A stretch of DNA of 64,000 nucleotides, from contig DATBAK010000010.1 in the NCBI GenBank assembly GCA_036271555.1, positions 124,001-188,000 on the forward strand, in the 5' to 3' direction. A program made the position numbers and the translations under genes. Source of the stretch: Acidimicrobiia bacterium. Its GTDB lineage: Bacteria; Actinomycetota; Acidimicrobiia; IMCC26256; PALSA-610. Shown piece after piece: positions 40,755-48,614 of this stretch. Position 1 is the first letter of the stretch. The number at the start of each line of letters is the position of its first letter. The notes under the pieces were generated by a model, which was given only the letters and a program-made list of their open reading frames with translations, searched no databases and was not told the DNA's origin.

Positions 40755-41087
40755 TCACGCTTTTTGGAAATGGTCGCTCAGACCCGTGATCGTCAGGAGG
40801 CGGGCAACGGGGTCGCTCGGGTTCTGGAGGACCAGACGCCCGGAGCCGGCGGCCAAGTCGTTGTGCAGCGCGAGCAGGATCCGCAGGCCGGAGGAGTCGA
40901 CGAACGTGGTCTGCGAGAGGTCCAACGTCAGATCCGTGCACCCGTCGGCCCGCAGACCGCCGGTGAGCTCCTCCAACGCGGGCGCCGAATAGGCGTCGAG
41001 CTCGCCGATGACGCCGACGACGGCGGCGCCGCCGTCGCGATCGGTCGTGAGCACGAGGTCGGCCCGTTCTGCCGAGTCGTCCGCCAC
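40755..41087 (-). CDS. STAS-domain anti-sigma factor antagonist
   Basis: 110 residues from a GTG at 41087 with GGAGGAG five bases upstream (VADDSAERADLVLTTDRDGG). STAS core: VVGVIGELDAYSAPALEEL, LTLDLSQTTFVDSSGLRILL with the phosphorylatable Ser of the DSSG loop, and DPVARLLTITGLSDHFQ. When unphosphorylated it would bind the RsbW-type kinase and free the sigma factor. It lies 87 bases downstream of the sigma gene on the same strand and is one of three STAS proteins in this module. Confidence 0.9.
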   Translation of the reverse strand: MADDSAERADLVLTTDRDGGAAVVGVIGELDAYSAPALEELTGGLRADGCTDLTLDLSQTTFVDSSGLRILLALHNDLAAGSGRLVLQNPSDPVARLLTITGLSDHFQKA

Positions 41088-41174
41088 CAAGGCTCCTCCG
41101 CGGTCACACCGCCATCTCGCGTATTCGGACGGCGTGATGGTAGCCACCACCCGGGGAGCGGGGTTCGTCGGCGC

Positions 41175-41933
41175 TCAGCGCTCGGCGGTCTGCAGCTGCT
41201 GGCGGAGGTTGGCGAGGCTGCGAGCGAGCAGACGCGAGACGTGCATCTGGCTCACACCGACCTGGTCGGCGATCTCGGTCTGCGTGAGGTCCTCGAAGAA
41301 CCGCAGCCGCAGGATGACCTGCTCGCGCTCCGGGAGGGTCGCGAGCGCGCGCTCGATGAGCGCACGGTGCTCGACGAGGTCGAAGTTCGCATCGAGCGTG
41401 CCGAGCCGTTCCGCGAGCCCGACCGACTCGCGCCCCTCGCCCGACGCGGCGTCGAGCGACGCGGAACGGTACGCGCCGCCGACCTCCATCGCCTCGAGCA
41501 CGTCGTCGACGCGGATGCCGAGCTCCTCGGCGATCTCCGGGATGCGCGGCGCGCGACCGAGTCGTTGCGTGAGCTCCGCGATCGTCGGCCCGAGCCGCAG
41601 ATGCAGCTCCTGCGAGCGCCGGGGCACGCGAACCGACCACGTCTTGTCCCGGAAGTGACGCTTGAGCTCGCCTTCGATCGTCGCGGTCGCGAACGTCGAG
41701 AACTCGAGACCGCGGTCGGGGTCGAAGCGCTCGACGGCCTTCAACATGCCGACGAACGCGACCTGCACGAGATCGTCGAGCGGCTCGCCACGGTTCGCGT
41801 ACCGACGCGCGAGGTGCGTCGCGAGCGCACGGTGCGCCTCGATGAGCTGATTGCGCGTCCTGCGGTCCCGGGTTCGGCTGAACTCCTCGAACTTGGTCCG
41901 CAGCTCTTCGCGCGAGGGCCGTTCCGAGCTCAT
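41175..41933 (-). CDS. SigB/SigF/SigG-family RNA polymerase sigma factor
   Basis: 252 residues from ATG 41933, overlapping the RsbW stop (ATGA). Region 2: AHLARRYANRGEPLDDLVQV and FVGMLKAVERFDPDRGLEFS with FSTFATATIEGELKRHFRDK; region 3: RVPRRSQELHLRLGPTIAEL; region 4: LPEREQVILRLRFFEDLTQT and the recognition helix VGVSQMHVSRLLARSLANLR. This is the stress/sporulation type controlled by partner switching. Translational coupling to the anti-sigma gene keeps the two in balance. Confidence 0.93.
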   Translation of the reverse strand: MSSERPSREELRTKFEEFSRTRDRRTRNQLIEAHRALATHLARRYANRGEPLDDLVQVAFVGMLKAVERFDPDRGLEFSTFATATIEGELKRHFRDKTWSVRVPRRSQELHLRLGPTIAELTQRLGRAPRIPEIAEELGIRVDDVLEAMEVGGAYRSASLDAASGEGRESVGLAERLGTLDANFDLVEHRALIERALATLPEREQVILRLRFFEDLTQTEIADQVGVSQMHVSRLLARSLANLRQQLQTAER

Positions 41934-42328
41934 TCCGTCGGCGCCGGCCGCTTGGCCGCTCGGAACTCGGCAAAACCGTCCATCGTGCTCAGGTCGAACT
42001 CGTCGACGACGACGCTCAGGATCTGCTGCGTCAGCTCGTCGAACTGCGGTGCGGCGACGACCGGCGCGCGACCTTCGATGACGAAGCGCCCGCCGAGGTC
42101 GGAGAAGGAGATGCTGAGCTCGCCGCCGTCGCCGGCTTCGATCACCACACTCGCGAGCTCGTCGACGGCGACGCGCACGTCCTCGATCTCCTCGACATCG
42201 AAGCCGAGACGCGCCGCGACCGCCGAGGCGGTCATGCGGGCCACGCGGACGTACTCGAGCGAGCCCGGGAACGAGAGCCGCACGACGTCGGCCACGCGCG
42301 TGCCGCTTGGTGCGGACTCGTCTGCCAT
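41930..42328 (-). CDS. rsbW: RsbW-type anti-sigma factor/serine kinase
   Basis: 132 residues; GAGGAG lies five bases before ATG 42328. HATPase_c fold: RLSFPGSLEYVRVARMTASA, then N box DVRVAVDELASVVIEAGDGG with the Glu/Asn-type ATP-metal site partly altered (E-L-A-S in place of E-A-x-x-N), then ISFSDLGGRFVIEGR. The usual G1 motif (D-x-G-x-G) is weak, so kinase activity might be lost while sigma binding is kept. The position, coupled to the sigma gene, makes the pairing secure. Confidence 0.85.
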   Translation of the reverse strand: MADESAPSGTRVADVVRLSFPGSLEYVRVARMTASAVAARLGFDVEEIEDVRVAVDELASVVIEAGDGGELSISFSDLGGRFVIEGRAPVVAAPQFDELTQQILSVVVDEFDLSTMDGFAEFRAAKRPAPTE

Positions 42329-42402
42329 GGGTACTCCTCGCCGTGCTGCCGGGTGGGCTGGTCCGCGCGGGCCGGCACGAACACGCGGCGCGGGCTCCGA
42401 AC

Positions 42403-42428
42403 CTACCCCCCGCCGCTCGCAACGAGAC
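42403..42428 (-). promoter_or_regulatory. Possible SigB/SigF-type promoter for the rsbW-sigma operon
   Basis: On the minus strand GTCT, 16 bases, GGGTAG, 75 bases before the rsbW start. The -35 is imperfect. Confidence 0.3.
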
Positions 42429-42430
42429 AC

Positions 42431-42456
42431 GTTTCGTGCCGCAACGGCGCGGGTAC
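42431..42456 (+). promoter_or_regulatory. SigB/SigF-type promoter candidate for the divergent STAS gene
   Basis: GTTT (42431-42434), a 16-base spacer, then GGGTAC (42451-42456) matches the GTTT-N15/17-GGGTAT consensus of SigF/SigB-type factors. The start codon is 15 bases beyond the -10, giving an almost leaderless mRNA. Confidence 0.5.
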
Positions 42457-42471
42457 TCCGCTCGCCGACGC

Positions 42472-42831
42472 ATGACCACTCCAGGTGAAGTGTTGGACGA
42501 CGAGCTCTCGGGGGACCGCGACCTGCTCCTGGAAGTGGAGCGTCGAGGTGCCGCGGTCACGGTGAGCGTGCGGGGCGAGCTCGACGCGGCGACCGCTCCC
42601 GACCTCGCCGTGGTGTGCCACTCGGTGCACGCCGACGGCGCCCGCGACCTCGTGATCGATCTGACCGACACGAGCTTTCTCGACTCGTCGGGTCTCCGCG
42701 TGCTGATCGATGCGCACCGGCTCTTCAGCGAAGGCGGCAACCTCGCGCTCGCCCACGCGAGCGAGCCGGTCCGGCGGCTGCTCGAGATCACCGGTCTCGA
42801 CGACTACTTCACCCTCGACGCCGGCGGCTGA
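42472..42831 (+). CDS. STAS-domain anti-sigma factor antagonist
   Basis: 119 residues from ATG 42472. STAS core: AVTVSVRGELDAATAPDLAV, LVIDLTDTSFLDSSGLRVLI with the phospho-Ser site, and EPVRRLLEITGLDDYFTLDA. It is a paralog of the 40755-41087 protein (shared ITGLDDYF/ITGLSDHF ends). It is divergent from rsbW, with both starts within 143 bases, and heads the operon with the phosphatase. It would act as the input partner that the PP2C dephosphorylates. Confidence 0.9.
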   Translation: MTTPGEVLDDELSGDRDLLLEVERRGAAVTVSVRGELDAATAPDLAVVCHSVHADGARDLVIDLTDTSFLDSSGLRVLIDAHRLFSEGGNLALAHASEPVRRLLEITGLDDYFTLDAGG

Positions 42832-42925: not shown

Positions 42926-45900
42926 ATGGAGCCTGAGCACGGCAGGGGCGACCAAGATATGACCGTGCAGCAGCAGCCCGAGCTGAACCAGCGGTTCGCC
43001 CTCGCGATGCGCGCGGCCCGCATGGGCAGCTGGTCGTGGCGGGTCGAGACGGGGCGGCTCGAGTGGGACGTGCACACCTCGGAGCTCTTCGGCATGCCGG
43101 CCGAGCCGTTCGTCGGAACGCTCGAGGACTGGGAGGCGCGGCTGCACCCCGAAGAGCGCGAGTGGGTCGCGGACGAGATCCTGCACGCGGTCGAGGACCA
43201 CCGCGCGTTCCGCTTCGACCATCGCTGCGTCTGGCCCGACGGATCGGTGCACTGGCTCGAGGCCGTCGGCGAGATCATCGTCGACGACTCCGGCGAGCTC
43301 ATCGGTGCCGCGGGCGTGACCCTCGACGTCGACGCGCGCAAGCACGCGCAGGCCGAGCGCGAGGCGCTGCTCGAGGCCGAGCGCGCGGCGAGGCGTGAAT
43401 CGGAAGAGGCCCGAGCGCGCGCCGAGCGGCTGCAGCGGATCAGCGCGGGACTCGCGCGCGCGGCGACGCGCGGCGAGGTCGGGCGGGTCGTCATCGGGCA
43501 GCTGGTTCCGACCATGCACGCGATGTCGGGTGGCGTGTCGCAGCTCGACGCCTCGGGCGAGCGGCTCATGTTCGTCGCGAGCACCGGTGACGAGACGACG
43601 TTCCCCTTCGTGCCGCTCGACGAGGCGGTGCTCAGCCGCGACGTCATCCGGACGCAGCAGGCGATCTTCATCGGGGAACCGGAGGAGTTCCGTCGGCGCT
43701 ATCCGCAGCTCGCCGCGCTCCAGCAGGCCGGCGGCTTCCAGTCGCTCGCGACGCTGCCCCTGTTGGTCGACGGCCGGCCGATCGGCTCGCTCGCACTCAT
43801 CTTCGGCGAGCCCCGTGAGTTCGCCCCGTCGGAGCAGCAATACCTCGAGATCGTGGCCGGCCTCTGCGCGCAGGCGCTGCGGCGCGCGCAGGCGCTCGAG
43901 GCCGAGCAGGCCCTCGCCGCCCGGCTGGCTCGACTGCAGGAGATCAGCGATCTCGCGCTCGCGCGGCTCCCGCTCGACGAGCTCCTCGCCGAGATCCCCG
44001 GCCGCATCGGATCAATGCTCCAGTGCGATGCGGTGCGTGTGCTGTTGCTCGACGACACGGGCCGCGAGCTCGTCGAGCGCGTCGGCACCCACTTCGATGC
44101 GACGGTGCCCCCGCTGCGCGTGCCGGTCGGACGCGGGTTCGCGGGTCGGGTCGCCGAGCTCGGCGACGCGATCGTCGTCGACGACCTGACCGAGATCGAC
44201 GTCATCGGGGAGACGCTGGGGGAGGGCGTCAGCAGCGCGGCGGGCGTCCCGCTCCAAGCGGAGACGCTGCTCGGCGTGCTCGACGTCGGGAGCAAGGGCT
44301 CGCGCCGGTTCACCGAAGAGGACCTCGACCTGCTCCGACTCGCGGCCGATCGCGTCGCGCGCGCGATCGAACGGGCACGGGTGTTCGAGCTCGAACGGTC
44401 GGCGCGCGAGCGCGCGGAGTTCCTCGAGCGCATGAACGCGGTGCTCACCCGGTCGCTCGAGATCCCCGACATCGTGCGGCGTGTGGCCCAAGCCGCGGTG
44501 CCACGGCTCGGTGACTGGTGCCAGCTCGCGGTGTTCATCGACGAGCAGGCGGTGGTGCCGCGCGTCGAGATCGCGCACAGCGATCCGGAGCAGCTCGCAT
44601 GGGCGCGCGAGCTCCAGGATCGGTTCCCGTACAACCCCGATTCGATGACCGGCATCCCCGCCGCGGTCCGCACGGGAACCACGCAGTACTACCCCGAGAT
44701 CAACGACGAGCTCATCGACTTCGCGACGCCCGACCGCGAGGCCCGCAAGATGCTGCGGCGCATGCGCGTGCGGTCGATGATCGTGGTGCCGTTGCGCGGT
44801 CGGCGCGGAATCCTGGGCGCCCTCGCGCTCGTGCAGGCCGAGTCGGACCGTCGCTACGCGCCCGCCGACGTGCAACTCGCGGAGGCGGTCGCGGCGCGCA
44901 TCGCGATCGCGCTCGAGAACGCACGGTTGTACGAGCGCGAGCGCTCGATCGCGGGCACATTGCAGCAGAGCCTGCTGCCGCCGCACCTGCCGGACGTCCC
45001 CGGCATGGAGATCGCGATGCGGTACTGGACCGCGAACGACACCGCGCTCGTCGGCGGCGACTTCTACGACGTCGTCACCGTCGCGCCCGACTGTTGGGGC
45101 GTGCTCGTCGGCGACGTCTCGGGCAAGGGCATCAGCGCGGCCGCGCTCACCGGTGTCGCGCGCCAGACGGCTCGCGCCGCGGCGCGCCACGCCGTCGGCC
45201 CGCGCGAGGTACTGCAGTGGCTCGACGACGCGGTGAAGGATCAATCCGACCAGTTCGGCGGGCAGTACTGCACCGCCGTGTACGGCCAGCTCGAACGCAG
45301 CGACGGCTGGAAGTTCCGGTTCGTGCTCGGTGGCCACCCGCGGCCGGTGCTCGTGCCCGCGGGCGGCGCGCCCCGACTCGTCGGCCGGCCCGGCAGCGTG
45401 CTCGGCTTGCTCGACGAGCCGCAGTTCCACGAGACCGAGGTGCCGCTGGGCCCCGGCGACACGCTGCTGCTCTACACCGACGGCGTCACCGACGTCGCCG
45501 GCCCCTCGGCGCTCGACGACGCCGGCCTGCTCGCGGTCGTCGCCGACGCGATGCGCGAGTCGTCGGACGCGACCGTGAACGCGCTGTACCAAGCGCTGGA
45601 GGCGCGCCACGCCCGCGTCGCCCGCCGCGACGACACCGCGATCATGGTGCTCCAGTGCCCGGGCACGATCGCCGCGTCGGCGACGCGCCGCGAGATCGAT
45701 CTACCCGCGCTCTCGTCGAGCCCGCGCCGGGCGCGCCGGTTCGTGCGCGAGATCCTCGCGCCGCTCGGCGTCCCCGATCCCGCGATCGACGACGTCGAGC
45801 TCGTCGCGACGGAGCTCGTCACGAACTCGGTGATGCACGCGCGCTCCGACGTGCGGCTATCGGTCGAGTGCGCGAACCACACGGTGCGGCTGCGCGTCGA

Positions 45901-46051
45901 GGACCACTCCGCGGTGCGGCCGGTCGTGCGGACCGCGGCACCCGACGCCGCGACCGGGCGCGGCCTGTTCATCGTCGAGCAGCTCACGTCGCGGTGGGGC
46001 GTCGAGCTCAACCGCGACGGCAAAGCAGTGTGGGTCGAGCTCGACGTCTGA
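42926..46051 (+). CDS. PAS-GAF-GAF-GAF-PP2C-HATPase multidomain sensor phosphatase
   Basis: 1041 residues from ATG 42926; ATG 42959 is equally possible. Domains: PAS (~20-140, ARMGSWSWRVETGRLEWDVH), coiled linker, GAF1 (~165-330), GAF2 (~345-485, AAGVPLQAETLLGVLDVGSK), GAF3 (~500-670), SpoIIE-type PP2C (~682-910: VGGDFYDVVTV, GDVSGKGISAAALTG, LLLYTDGVTDVAGPSA, RRDDTAIMV) and a C-terminal RsbW-like HATPase (~930-1040: VATELVTNSVMHARSDVRLS, GRGLFIVEQL). It can both dephosphorylate STAS proteins and perhaps phosphorylate them, so it is a self-contained switch responding to several ligands or light/redox. Confidence 0.92.
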   Translation: MEPEHGRGDQDMTVQQQPELNQRFALAMRAARMGSWSWRVETGRLEWDVHTSELFGMPAEPFVGTLEDWEARLHPEEREWVADEILHAVEDHRAFRFDHRCVWPDGSVHWLEAVGEIIVDDSGELIGAAGVTLDVDARKHAQAEREALLEAERAARRESEEARARAERLQRISAGLARAATRGEVGRVVIGQLVPTMHAMSGGVSQLDASGERLMFVASTGDETTFPFVPLDEAVLSRDVIRTQQAIFIGEPEEFRRRYPQLAALQQAGGFQSLATLPLLVDGRPIGSLALIFGEPREFAPSEQQYLEIVAGLCAQALRRAQALEAEQALAARLARLQEISDLALARLPLDELLAEIPGRIGSMLQCDAVRVLLLDDTGRELVERVGTHFDATVPPLRVPVGRGFAGRVAELGDAIVVDDLTEIDVIGETLGEGVSSAAGVPLQAETLLGVLDVGSKGSRRFTEEDLDLLRLAADRVARAIERARVFELERSARERAEFLERMNAVLTRSLEIPDIVRRVAQAAVPRLGDWCQLAVFIDEQAVVPRVEIAHSDPEQLAWARELQDRFPYNPDSMTGIPAAVRTGTTQYYPEINDELIDFATPDREARKMLRRMRVRSMIVVPLRGRRGILGALALVQAESDRRYAPADVQLAEAVAARIAIALENARLYERERSIAGTLQQSLLPPHLPDVPGMEIAMRYWTANDTALVGGDFYDVVTVAPDCWGVLVGDVSGKGISAAALTGVARQTARAAARHAVGPREVLQWLDDAVKDQSDQFGGQYCTAVYGQLERSDGWKFRFVLGGHPRPVLVPAGGAPRLVGRPGSVLGLLDEPQFHETEVPLGPGDTLLLYTDGVTDVAGPSALDDAGLLAVVADAMRESSDATVNALYQALEARHARVARRDDTAIMVLQCPGTIAASATRREIDLPALSSSPRRARRFVREILAPLGVPDPAIDDVELVATELVTNSVMHARSDVRLSVECANHTVRLRVEDHSAVRPVVRTAAPDAATGRGLFIVEQLTSRWGVELNRDGKAVWVELDV

Positions 46052-46154: not shown

Positions 46155-47024
46155 TTAGGCCTCGATCCGCACGACTTCTTCGATGCCGGCGATCTCGAGG
46201 ATGCGGCGGATGCGCGAGTTCGGCCCGCGGATCACGAGCTCGCGCTCGGTCGTCCGGAGCCGTTGCCACGCCTGCAGCAGCACACCGATCGCGATCGAGT
46301 CGAGGAAGTCGGTGCCGCTGAAGTCGACGACGACGTCGCCGGCGGAATCCTGCGCGACCGTCATGAGCGCGGCGCGCAGGCGTTCCGACGAATCGAAGTC
46401 GAACTCGCCGACCGCGGTGATCACCGCGGGATCGGAGCCGCTCGTCGTCACGGTCGCGCGGGGCGTCTCGACCCGCGTCGTGTGCATCGCGATGCGGAAC
46501 AGCACGTGCGGGCGGAGCGCATGCCCGATCGGCAGGTTCGGATGCTCGAAGTCGTCCCGCGCGTGATGGATCATGCCGAGCCGGCGCATCACGCGCTGTG
46601 AGCGCAGGTTGAGCTTCGCCGTCATCGACACGAACTCGGTGATGCCGAACGTGTCGGTGCCGCAACGAAGCACCGCGTGCGCGCCCTCGGTCGCGTAGCC
46701 GAGCCCCCAGGACGCGTGCGCGAGCCGCCAGCCCACCTCGACCGCAGGCCCGAACGGGTACTCCGGCCCTTGCAGCGCGAGGCCGACGAATCCCACGAAC
46801 GGCGCGACGCCCGGCACCTCGACCGCCCAGAGTCCGTAGCCGAGCTCGTCGAAGCGGGCCTCGATGCGCTCGACCATCGCGTCGCTCTCGGCGCGGCTGA
46901 GCGCCTTGGGGAAGAACTCCATGACGCGCGGATCGGCGTTCAGGTCGGCGAACGGCGCCCGGTCCTCGGCCCGCCAGCGGCGCAGCAGCAGCCGCTCGGT
47001 GCGCAGCTCGGGGGAGTCGTTCAC
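46155..47024 (-). CDS. GNAT acetyltransferase fused to a STAS domain
   Basis: 289 residues from a GTG at 47024. Residues ~1-178 are a RimJ/RimL-type GNAT: LRTERLLLRRWRAEDRAPFA, VGFVGLALQGPEYPFGPAVE, ASWGLGYATEGAHAVLR (acetyl-CoA loop) and LNLRSQRVMRRLGMIHH. With no stop the frame continues into a STAS domain (~185-289): AVITAVGEFDFDSSERLRAA, VVVDFSGTDFLDSIAIGVLL, RILEIAGIEEVVRIEA. The usual phosphorylatable Ser is replaced: FLDSIAIGVL has DSI instead of DSSG, so the site shifts or is lost. An internal ATG at 46487 could also make STAS alone. Confidence 0.85.
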   Translation of the reverse strand: MNDSPELRTERLLLRRWRAEDRAPFADLNADPRVMEFFPKALSRAESDAMVERIEARFDELGYGLWAVEVPGVAPFVGFVGLALQGPEYPFGPAVEVGWRLAHASWGLGYATEGAHAVLRCGTDTFGITEFVSMTAKLNLRSQRVMRRLGMIHHARDDFEHPNLPIGHALRPHVLFRIAMHTTRVETPRATVTTSGSDPAVITAVGEFDFDSSERLRAALMTVAQDSAGDVVVDFSGTDFLDSIAIGVLLQAWQRLRTTERELVIRGPNSRIRRILEIAGIEEVVRIEA

Positions 47025-47071: not shown

Positions 47072-47659
47072 TCAGGCCGCCGCGAGCAACGTGTTCAGGG
47101 GCCCGTCGAGGGCCTTGTGGCTCGTGATCCCGTAGACCCGCGCCTGGATCGTGCCGTCCTTCGTGATGAAGAAGGTCTGCGGGATGCCGTTCACCCCGTA
47201 GGCCTTCGAGATCGCGTTCGACTCGTCGTTGATGGCCGGCCAATCGGCGTGGTACTTGGCGACGAATTGCCTCGCGTCCGACGGCAGGTCGTCGTGCATC
47301 ACCGACAGCACCGCGAGGTCGTGGTGCTGCGCGGCGGCCTCCACGAGCAACGGGTACTCCTGGTTGCAGGGATGGCACCACGAGGCGCCGAACGACACGA
47401 GCACCGGACGCCCGCGGTACGACGCGAGCGAGACCGACTTGCCGTCGAGGTCGGTCGCGGTGAACCGCGGCGCGAGCGAGTGGACGGCGGCGATGCCCTT
47501 CACCGACACGTCGGGCGGCACCGCATCCGATTTGGAACGCGAGTGCAGCGACACCGCGAGCAGCACGCCGACCACGACGATGATGACGACGCCGAGCGCG
47601 GCGACCCGGAGTCGGCGGCGGCGGCCGTCAGTGCCGGTTGATGAAGGCGTCGGCGGCAA
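47072..47659 (-). CDS. TlpA/ResA-like membrane-anchored thioredoxin
   Basis: 195 residues from a TTG at 47659 overlapping the ctaB end by 32 bases; no ATG or GTG is available in this frame near the start, so initiation is uncertain. A membrane helix (VAALGVVIIVVVGVLLAVSL) is followed by the extracytoplasmic domain: APRFTATDLDGKSVSLASYR, LVSFGASWCHPCNQEYPLLV (active-site CHPC, ~94) and AYGVNGIPQTFFITKDGTIQ with the cis-Pro. It likely reduces disulfides for cytochrome c or CuA maturation; gene order with ctaB and a cupredoxin supports this. Confidence 0.82.
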   Translation of the reverse strand: MPPTPSSTGTDGRRRRLRVAALGVVIIVVVGVLLAVSLHSRSKSDAVPPDVSVKGIAAVHSLAPRFTATDLDGKSVSLASYRGRPVLVSFGASWCHPCNQEYPLLVEAAAQHHDLAVLSVMHDDLPSDARQFVAKYHADWPAINDESNAISKAYGVNGIPQTFFITKDGTIQARVYGITSHKALDGPLNTLLAAA

Positions 47660-48614
47660 CGGCGGCGAAGACCAGCAGGAGATAGATGTTCGAGAACCCG
47701 AAGAACTTGATCGCCGCGTTCGGCGACAGGTTCTTCGTGAGGCGCACCGCCTGGCCGACGAACAGCACGCCGAGCGCGGCCGCGGCAACGACGTACGCGA
47801 TGCTCACCGACACCACGAGCCCGAGCGTGAGCGTGACCGCGGCGGTCACCACCGCGTACGCGGTGATCTGCAGGCTCGTCTCGCGCGGGCTCTTCAGCAC
47901 GGGCAGCATCGGGATGCCGGCGCGCGCGTAGTCGTCCCGGTACTTGAACGCGAGTGCCCAGAAGTGCGCAGGCGTCCAGAAGAACACGACCGCGAACAAG
48001 ATCCACGCGGGCGCGGCCACGTCGCCGCGCACCGCGGCCCAACCGACGAGCACGGGAACCGCGCCCGCCGCGCCGCCGATGACGATGTTCTGCGCGGTGC
48101 GGGGCTTCAACCAGATCGTGTACACGAACACGTAGAACAGCGTTGCGCTGATCGTGAGGCACGCCGCGAGCAGGTTCGCCGCGAGCGCGAGGTACACGAA
48201 CGCGATCACGTTCAGCGCGATGCCGAACACGAGCGCGCGCGCCGGTACGACTTCACCCGAGGGCAGCGGCCGGCGCTCGGTGCGGTGCATGAGCTGATCG
48301 CGGTCGCGCTCGACCCAGCAGTTGATCGTGTTCGCGCCGCCGGCCGCGAGCGCGCCACCGACGAGCACCGCGACGAGCAGACGCGCGGCCGGCATGCCGT
48401 GCGCCGCGAGCAGCATCGGCGGCACCGACGTGACCAGCAGCAGCTCGATGACCCGCGGCTTGGTCAGCCGGACGTACGCACCCAGCGATGCCCGCCAGTC
48501 GAGCGTGGACACTCGTTCGGAGGCGGGCTGTAGCACGGGCAACGGCTCCAGACGGATTGCGGGCGAGCCGATCGAATGTAACTCAGGGCGTTCGCCGGCG
48601 ACGAAGCGCTCCAT
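47628..48614 (-). CDS. ctaB: Protoheme IX farnesyltransferase (heme O synthase)
   Basis: 328 residues from ATG 48614; GTG 48512 would give a more usual 294. UbiA family: the first Asp-rich motif GANTINCWVERDRDQLMHRT (N-x-x-x-D and the adjacent RT), LPSGEVVPARALVFG, then the second loop YTIWLKPRTAQNIVIGGAAG and WTPAHFWALAFKYRDDYARA. Eight or nine membrane helices. It attaches farnesyl to heme b to make heme O for CtaA. It lies between cupredoxin and TlpA genes, with ctaA elsewhere in the window. Confidence 0.92.
   Translation of the reverse strand: MERFVAGERPELHSIGSPAIRLEPLPVLQPASERVSTLDWRASLGAYVRLTKPRVIELLLVTSVPPMLLAAHGMPAARLLVAVLVGGALAAGGANTINCWVERDRDQLMHRTERRPLPSGEVVPARALVFGIALNVIAFVYLALAANLLAACLTISATLFYVFVYTIWLKPRTAQNIVIGGAAGAVPVLVGWAAVRGDVAAPAWILFAVVFFWTPAHFWALAFKYRDDYARAGIPMLPVLKSPRETSLQITAYAVVTAAVTLTLGLVVSVSIAYVVAAAALGVLFVGQAVRLTKNLSPNAAIKFFGFSNIYLLLVFAAVAADAFINRH

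Follow-up and report, generated by a model that had tools for sequence, protein, structure and literature searches.

The gene at positions 46155..47024 (minus strand) of the window (the whole stretch of DNA that was analysed, 64,000 nucleotides) encodes a protein of 289 aa, in which a GNAT acetyltransferase of the PA3944 type is joined in frame to an RsbV-like STAS domain. The STAS half is related to STAS genes that lie tail to tail with HATPase genes, and a HATPase of the same group is encoded by the gene convergent with the fusion. The acetyltransferase may be tethered to the STAS domain of a partner switch, which perhaps also gates it, a reading that is judged to be about evenly balanced.

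Structure of the fusion gene

The frame was followed from a GTG start at 47024 to 46155 on the minus strand and contains 289 codons with zero internal stops. Two complete domains were found in it with Pfam, namely Acetyltransf_3 (residues 11-151, E 3.8e-32) and STAS (residues 199-288, E 1.4e-16). The GNAT domain was assigned to residues 1-179 (46488..47024, minus strand), and the STAS domain (46158..46487, minus strand) was taken to extend from Met180, the start of the former standalone gene. The third-position G+C content was 0.87-1.0 in all 30-codon stretches, including codons 161-210 over the junction; therefore, GNAT, STAS and junction read as coding in a single frame. The open frame, the Pfam domains and the third-position G+C bear out the original prediction that an acetyltransferase and an anti-sigma-antagonist domain share one frame without a stop.

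The junction is nearly linkerless: the GNAT ends with ...LFRIA and is followed by Met180. The GNAT end (HVLFRI) is the point at which GNAT relatives end, and Met180 lies approximately where standalone STAS proteins start. Structure prediction of the full protein, as proposed at the outset, was performed with AlphaFold on a four-row input, with the STAS part represented by a single row, and gave two folded domains with a flexible, low-confidence linker (residues 182-188).

Because no evident Shine-Dalgarno sequence precedes the GTG at 47024 or the ATG at 46487, a short separate STAS product starting at 46487 may be formed. Sole use of the ATG at 46487, which had been named as a finding that would speak against the fusion, is unlikely since the coding frame of the GNAT half is conserved and has no stop of its own.

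Distribution of the fusion

At about 30 loci, GNAT relatives (42-63% identity) were followed to the stop codon, which lies 3-41 residues past the homologous part; 0 of them continue into a STAS domain. With the whole fusion as query, no other match covering both domains was obtained in 58 genomes of the order, 395 of the class and 396 of the phylum; alignments running beyond the GNAT crossed stop codons or ended short of the STAS core. A second GNAT-STAS fusion was not detected in plasmids and phages. One Streptomyces plasmid match (H1, 78% of the query) was rejected, as the GNAT reading frame ends at 175 aa and the alignment beyond it is spurious. A pattern scan of one genome per species (about 85,000 species) returned only GNAT-only relatives. 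STAS homologues in long frames (L097, L103, L104, L105, L108, L109, L112, L113, and L121) were without a second domain, and in the genome of the fusion itself PF13466 (14 matches) and PF13302 (14 matches) coincide only at this gene. These rarity searches are blind to a STAS domain fused to another kind of GNAT, the class and phylum lists were taken at strict E-values, and none of the genomes compared is of the same genus as the fusion carrier. A search of the open literature (limited coverage) yielded nothing relevant linking GNAT with STAS.

As the homologues whose ends were read all stand alone, the fusion is, on sequence comparison, lineage-specific and confined to a single genome among those searched; looking for it elsewhere, as had been suggested, gave no second case in these genomes. 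Separate GNAT and STAS genes among the homologues, with the missing stop as a sequencing artefact, had been named as a refutation. The first part of this holds for every homologue with its end read, and the artefact was not demonstrated. A sequencing or assembly error that joined two separate, overlapping genes is regarded as improbable. It would fit the separate homologues, a comparison set without a same-genus genome and the source, a draft genome in 104 contigs with 95.8% completeness, and one base less before Met180 would bring the GNAT to a stop 12-14 residues on. However, GNAT and STAS share their reading frame as far as the junction itself, the STAS-leader homology begins within a few residues of Met180, and the usual short stop/start overlap would take a two-base error.

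Acetyltransferase domain

Among solved proteins, the one most closely related to the GNAT domain is PA3944 of Pseudomonas aeruginosa (PDB 6edd, 7kps, 7kyj), which was recovered with phmmer at E 4.8e-49 (residues 6-178 against 14-186). The homology is full-length, including the C-terminal FxHP...HxLYR part, and the AlphaFold model matches PA3944 with approximately 48% identity and an rmsd of 1.5 A over the GNAT part. PA3944 uses polymyxin B and a small analogue as acetyl acceptors and requires Ser148; E102, F44, H167, and H179 are located at its acceptor site (PMC8072286). The corresponding residues S142, E96, F38, H161, and H173 are all kept in the fusion and are invariant in an alignment with three homologues. 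The offset to the PA3944 numbering was set by the E102A entry 7kpp, which has Ala at the expected column. Sequence, fold, catalytic Ser and acceptor-site residues are thus shared with PA3944, which is a single-domain protein without STAS, whereas the present GNAT is fused to one.

The GNAT domain looks catalytically able. By homology, its substrate is probably a small amine or a peptide, in keeping with the in vitro activity of PA3944, rather than a sigma or anti-sigma factor. The initial assignment to the RimJ/RimL type was not retained: RimJ of M. smegmatis (6c30) is a much weaker fold match, ranking 30th with 18% identity, compared with E 4.8e-49 for PA3944.

STAS domain and the convergent SpoIIE-HATPase gene

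The STAS domain scores 57.8 bits against TIGR00377, the anti-sigma-antagonist family of NCBIfam (curated cut-off 53.45). Its predicted phosphorylation site, Ser243 (codon 46296..46298, minus strand) of the motif DSIAIG, aligns with Ser58 of SpoIIAA (alignment with 1th8 and 1tid). The SpoIIAA chain in 1tid/1til has Ala exactly at the Ser243 column; these entries represent the S58A mutant. Control other than by phosphorylation had been suggested because the motif reads DSIAIG instead of DSSG. Loss of the phospho-serine was rejected, as Ser243 occupies the SpoIIAA Ser58 column and a phosphorylatable residue is retained. The sister STAS genes read DSIGMS, DSAGIS, DSTGLS, and DSSGLS in this region, differing past the Ser, and such variation is therefore ordinary in this STAS group. 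In comparison to SpoIIAA, RsbV, and RsfB (PDB 1th8, 1tid, 8ih8), the fused STAS is likewise complete with a phosphorylatable Ser, but it has DSIAIG in place of DSSG..G, is joined to an enzyme and is without an indicated sigma partner of its own.

The fusion adjoins partner-switching genes, as originally described, and is convergent with a PAS-GAF-SpoIIE(PP2C)-HATPase gene (42959..46051, plus strand, 1030 aa; Pfam). The PP2C motifs GGDFYD and GDVSGKG are present in the SpoIIE domain, and the C-terminal HATPase_c_2 domain (45674..46048, plus strand) has intact N-box, G1 and G2 motifs. The five loci with the closest STAS genes (L074, L075, L076, L077, and L081) were picked by STAS similarity, and gene order or convergence played no part in the choice. 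At all five, the STAS gene lies tail to tail with an RsbW-type HATPase gene. Searching 296 genomes of the class separately gave a sixth convergent STAS/HATPase pair at a locus of another family (L095) and no convergent pair among the more distant STAS loci read.

Domain trees, built on about 95-120 columns, placed the fused STAS with the STAS proteins of the five loci (support 94/96), and the window's two remaining STAS genes with a SigF-operon STAS (support 90/86). The HATPase domain of the SpoIIE protein grouped with the same five loci (support 100/100), and two same-strand HATPases fell outside this group. By tree and gene order, the arrangement in the window is therefore that of the conserved pair; here, a phosphatase is joined to the HATPase and a GNAT to the STAS. 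At the sister loci, the STAS is standalone with no nearby GNAT, and neither a sigma gene nor an RsbW-like gene was present in the stretches read at the six loci (L074-L077, L081, L095).

Neighbouring SigF-type genes and flanks

A SigB/F/G-family sigma gene, an RsbW-like gene and two canonical DSSG STAS genes are located at 40755-42831. One STAS gene (40755-41150, minus strand) follows the sigma gene and the other (42472-42831, plus strand) lies ahead of the SpoIIE-HATPase gene. The product of the RsbW-like gene (41930-42328, minus strand) is without the N-box Asn, the G1 Asp and the G2 Gly-x-Gly, which are also missing from most class relatives beside sigma genes (L082, L083, L084, L100, L109, L111, L119, and L120). 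These motif-poor proteins are probably anti-sigma factors and not kinases, as judged from their residues. Since the RsbW-like protein is without the ATP motifs and the HATPase domain at 45674-46048 has them, the SpoIIE-HATPase protein is the candidate for an ATP-competent kinase. A second partner-switch cluster was noted in the same genome (locus L084, G000:C59); its SpoIIE, HATPase, RsbW-like and two STAS genes all lie on the same strand.

It had been proposed that acetylation by the GNAT is linked to the freeing of a sigma factor, here the SigF-type one encoded nearby, from the RsbW-like protein. The sigma, RsbW-like and two DSSG STAS genes 3-6 kb away speak for this idea, but it is unsupported by the analysis and is considered very improbable. 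The fused STAS falls outside the SigF-linked group in the domain tree and groups with proteins paired to another HATPase, and its sisters are neighbours of HATPase genes, the stretches read there containing neither a sigma nor an RsbW-like gene. Pairing of the fused STAS with the SigF/RsbW set was accordingly rejected on the STAS and HATPase trees and on gene order, by which the SpoIIE-HATPase protein is indicated as the partner. PA3944 acts on polymyxin B and an analogue (PMC8072286), and a link between acetylation and sigma release was not found in the open literature within the limited coverage.

On the other flank, a CtaB gene and a TlpA/redoxin-like gene (47072-48614, minus strand) form a pair that is kept in most relatives. 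The fusion begins 47 bases past TlpA on the same strand, and a common transcript may exist. In the stretches read, a GNAT is absent within 8 kb of the relatives' CtaB-TlpA block, and STAS, SpoIIE and the sigma set are absent beside their TlpA. The conservation of CtaB-TlpA without these genes beside it argues that the set is a lineage-specific insertion or rearrangement.

Proposed mechanism

A PA3944-type acetyltransferase gene would have been fused in frame, nearly without linker, to a standalone RsbV-like STAS gene, the latter derived from a conserved convergent STAS/HATPase pair. In the convergent PAS-GAF-SpoIIE-HATPase protein, the C-terminal HATPase domain would phosphorylate Ser243 and the SpoIIE (PP2C) domain would remove the phosphate. 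The unphosphorylated STAS would bind the HATPase domain, and a signal received by PAS/GAF would set, through this switch, the tethering and perhaps the gating of the acetyltransferase; this is the least certain step. If the unphosphorylated STAS sits on the HATPase domain, the acetyltransferase would be tethered to the switch.

The SpoIIE-HATPase protein is likely both kinase and phosphatase of Ser243. In Rv1364c of Mycobacterium tuberculosis, the kinase and phosphatase domains act on the STAS serine of the same protein (PMC10950880, PMC9138534), and by this analogy the phosphorylation state of Ser243 should be under the control of the SpoIIE-HATPase protein. PAS, PP2C and HATPase kinase are combined in one protein in both cases, with a STAS serine as target. 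Rv1364c is a PAS-PP2C-kinase-STAS protein in one polypeptide, an architecture that was not found here, where the STAS is encoded with the GNAT by a separate convergent gene and, unlike in Rv1364c, the sensor part has GAF domains besides PAS.

The switch might go further and set the activity or the location of the acetyltransferase through Ser243, with an enzyme reaction in place of a sigma factor as output. SiaC is a phosphorylated STAS-like protein. In Pseudomonas aeruginosa, this switch partner activates an enzyme, SiaD, and not a sigma factor (PMC8457831), and the output of such a switch can therefore be an enzyme. SiaD is a diguanylate cyclase bound in trans, whereas here the enzyme is an acetyltransferase and is fused. 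Control of the GNAT in this form is doubtful, and the flexible linker in the AlphaFold model was counted against an effect of the STAS state on the GNAT.

The same linker would fit a recent neutral fusion, in which the stop separating two neighbouring genes on the same strand was lost and the domains keep their old jobs, PA3944-like acetylation and RsbV-like switching, uncoupled. So would the occurrence in this genome only among those searched, the complete partners meeting end to end (...LFRIA, then Met180) and the absence, from the stretches read, of partner-switch genes near the GNAT relatives. An open, coding frame and the retained active-site and phospho residues might count against neutrality, but the same is equally expected of merely joined domains. 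A neutral fusion is a real possibility, though with somewhat less than an even chance.

Implications

The convergent STAS/HATPase pair, for which the stretches read contain no sigma gene, is a separate lead. To our knowledge, no natural output of this conserved pair has been described, and the fusion hints at one. If the STAS state controls the GNAT, the protein would represent partner switching with a built-in acetyltransferase output, and would provide a small, testable case of a phospho-switch wired to an enzyme.
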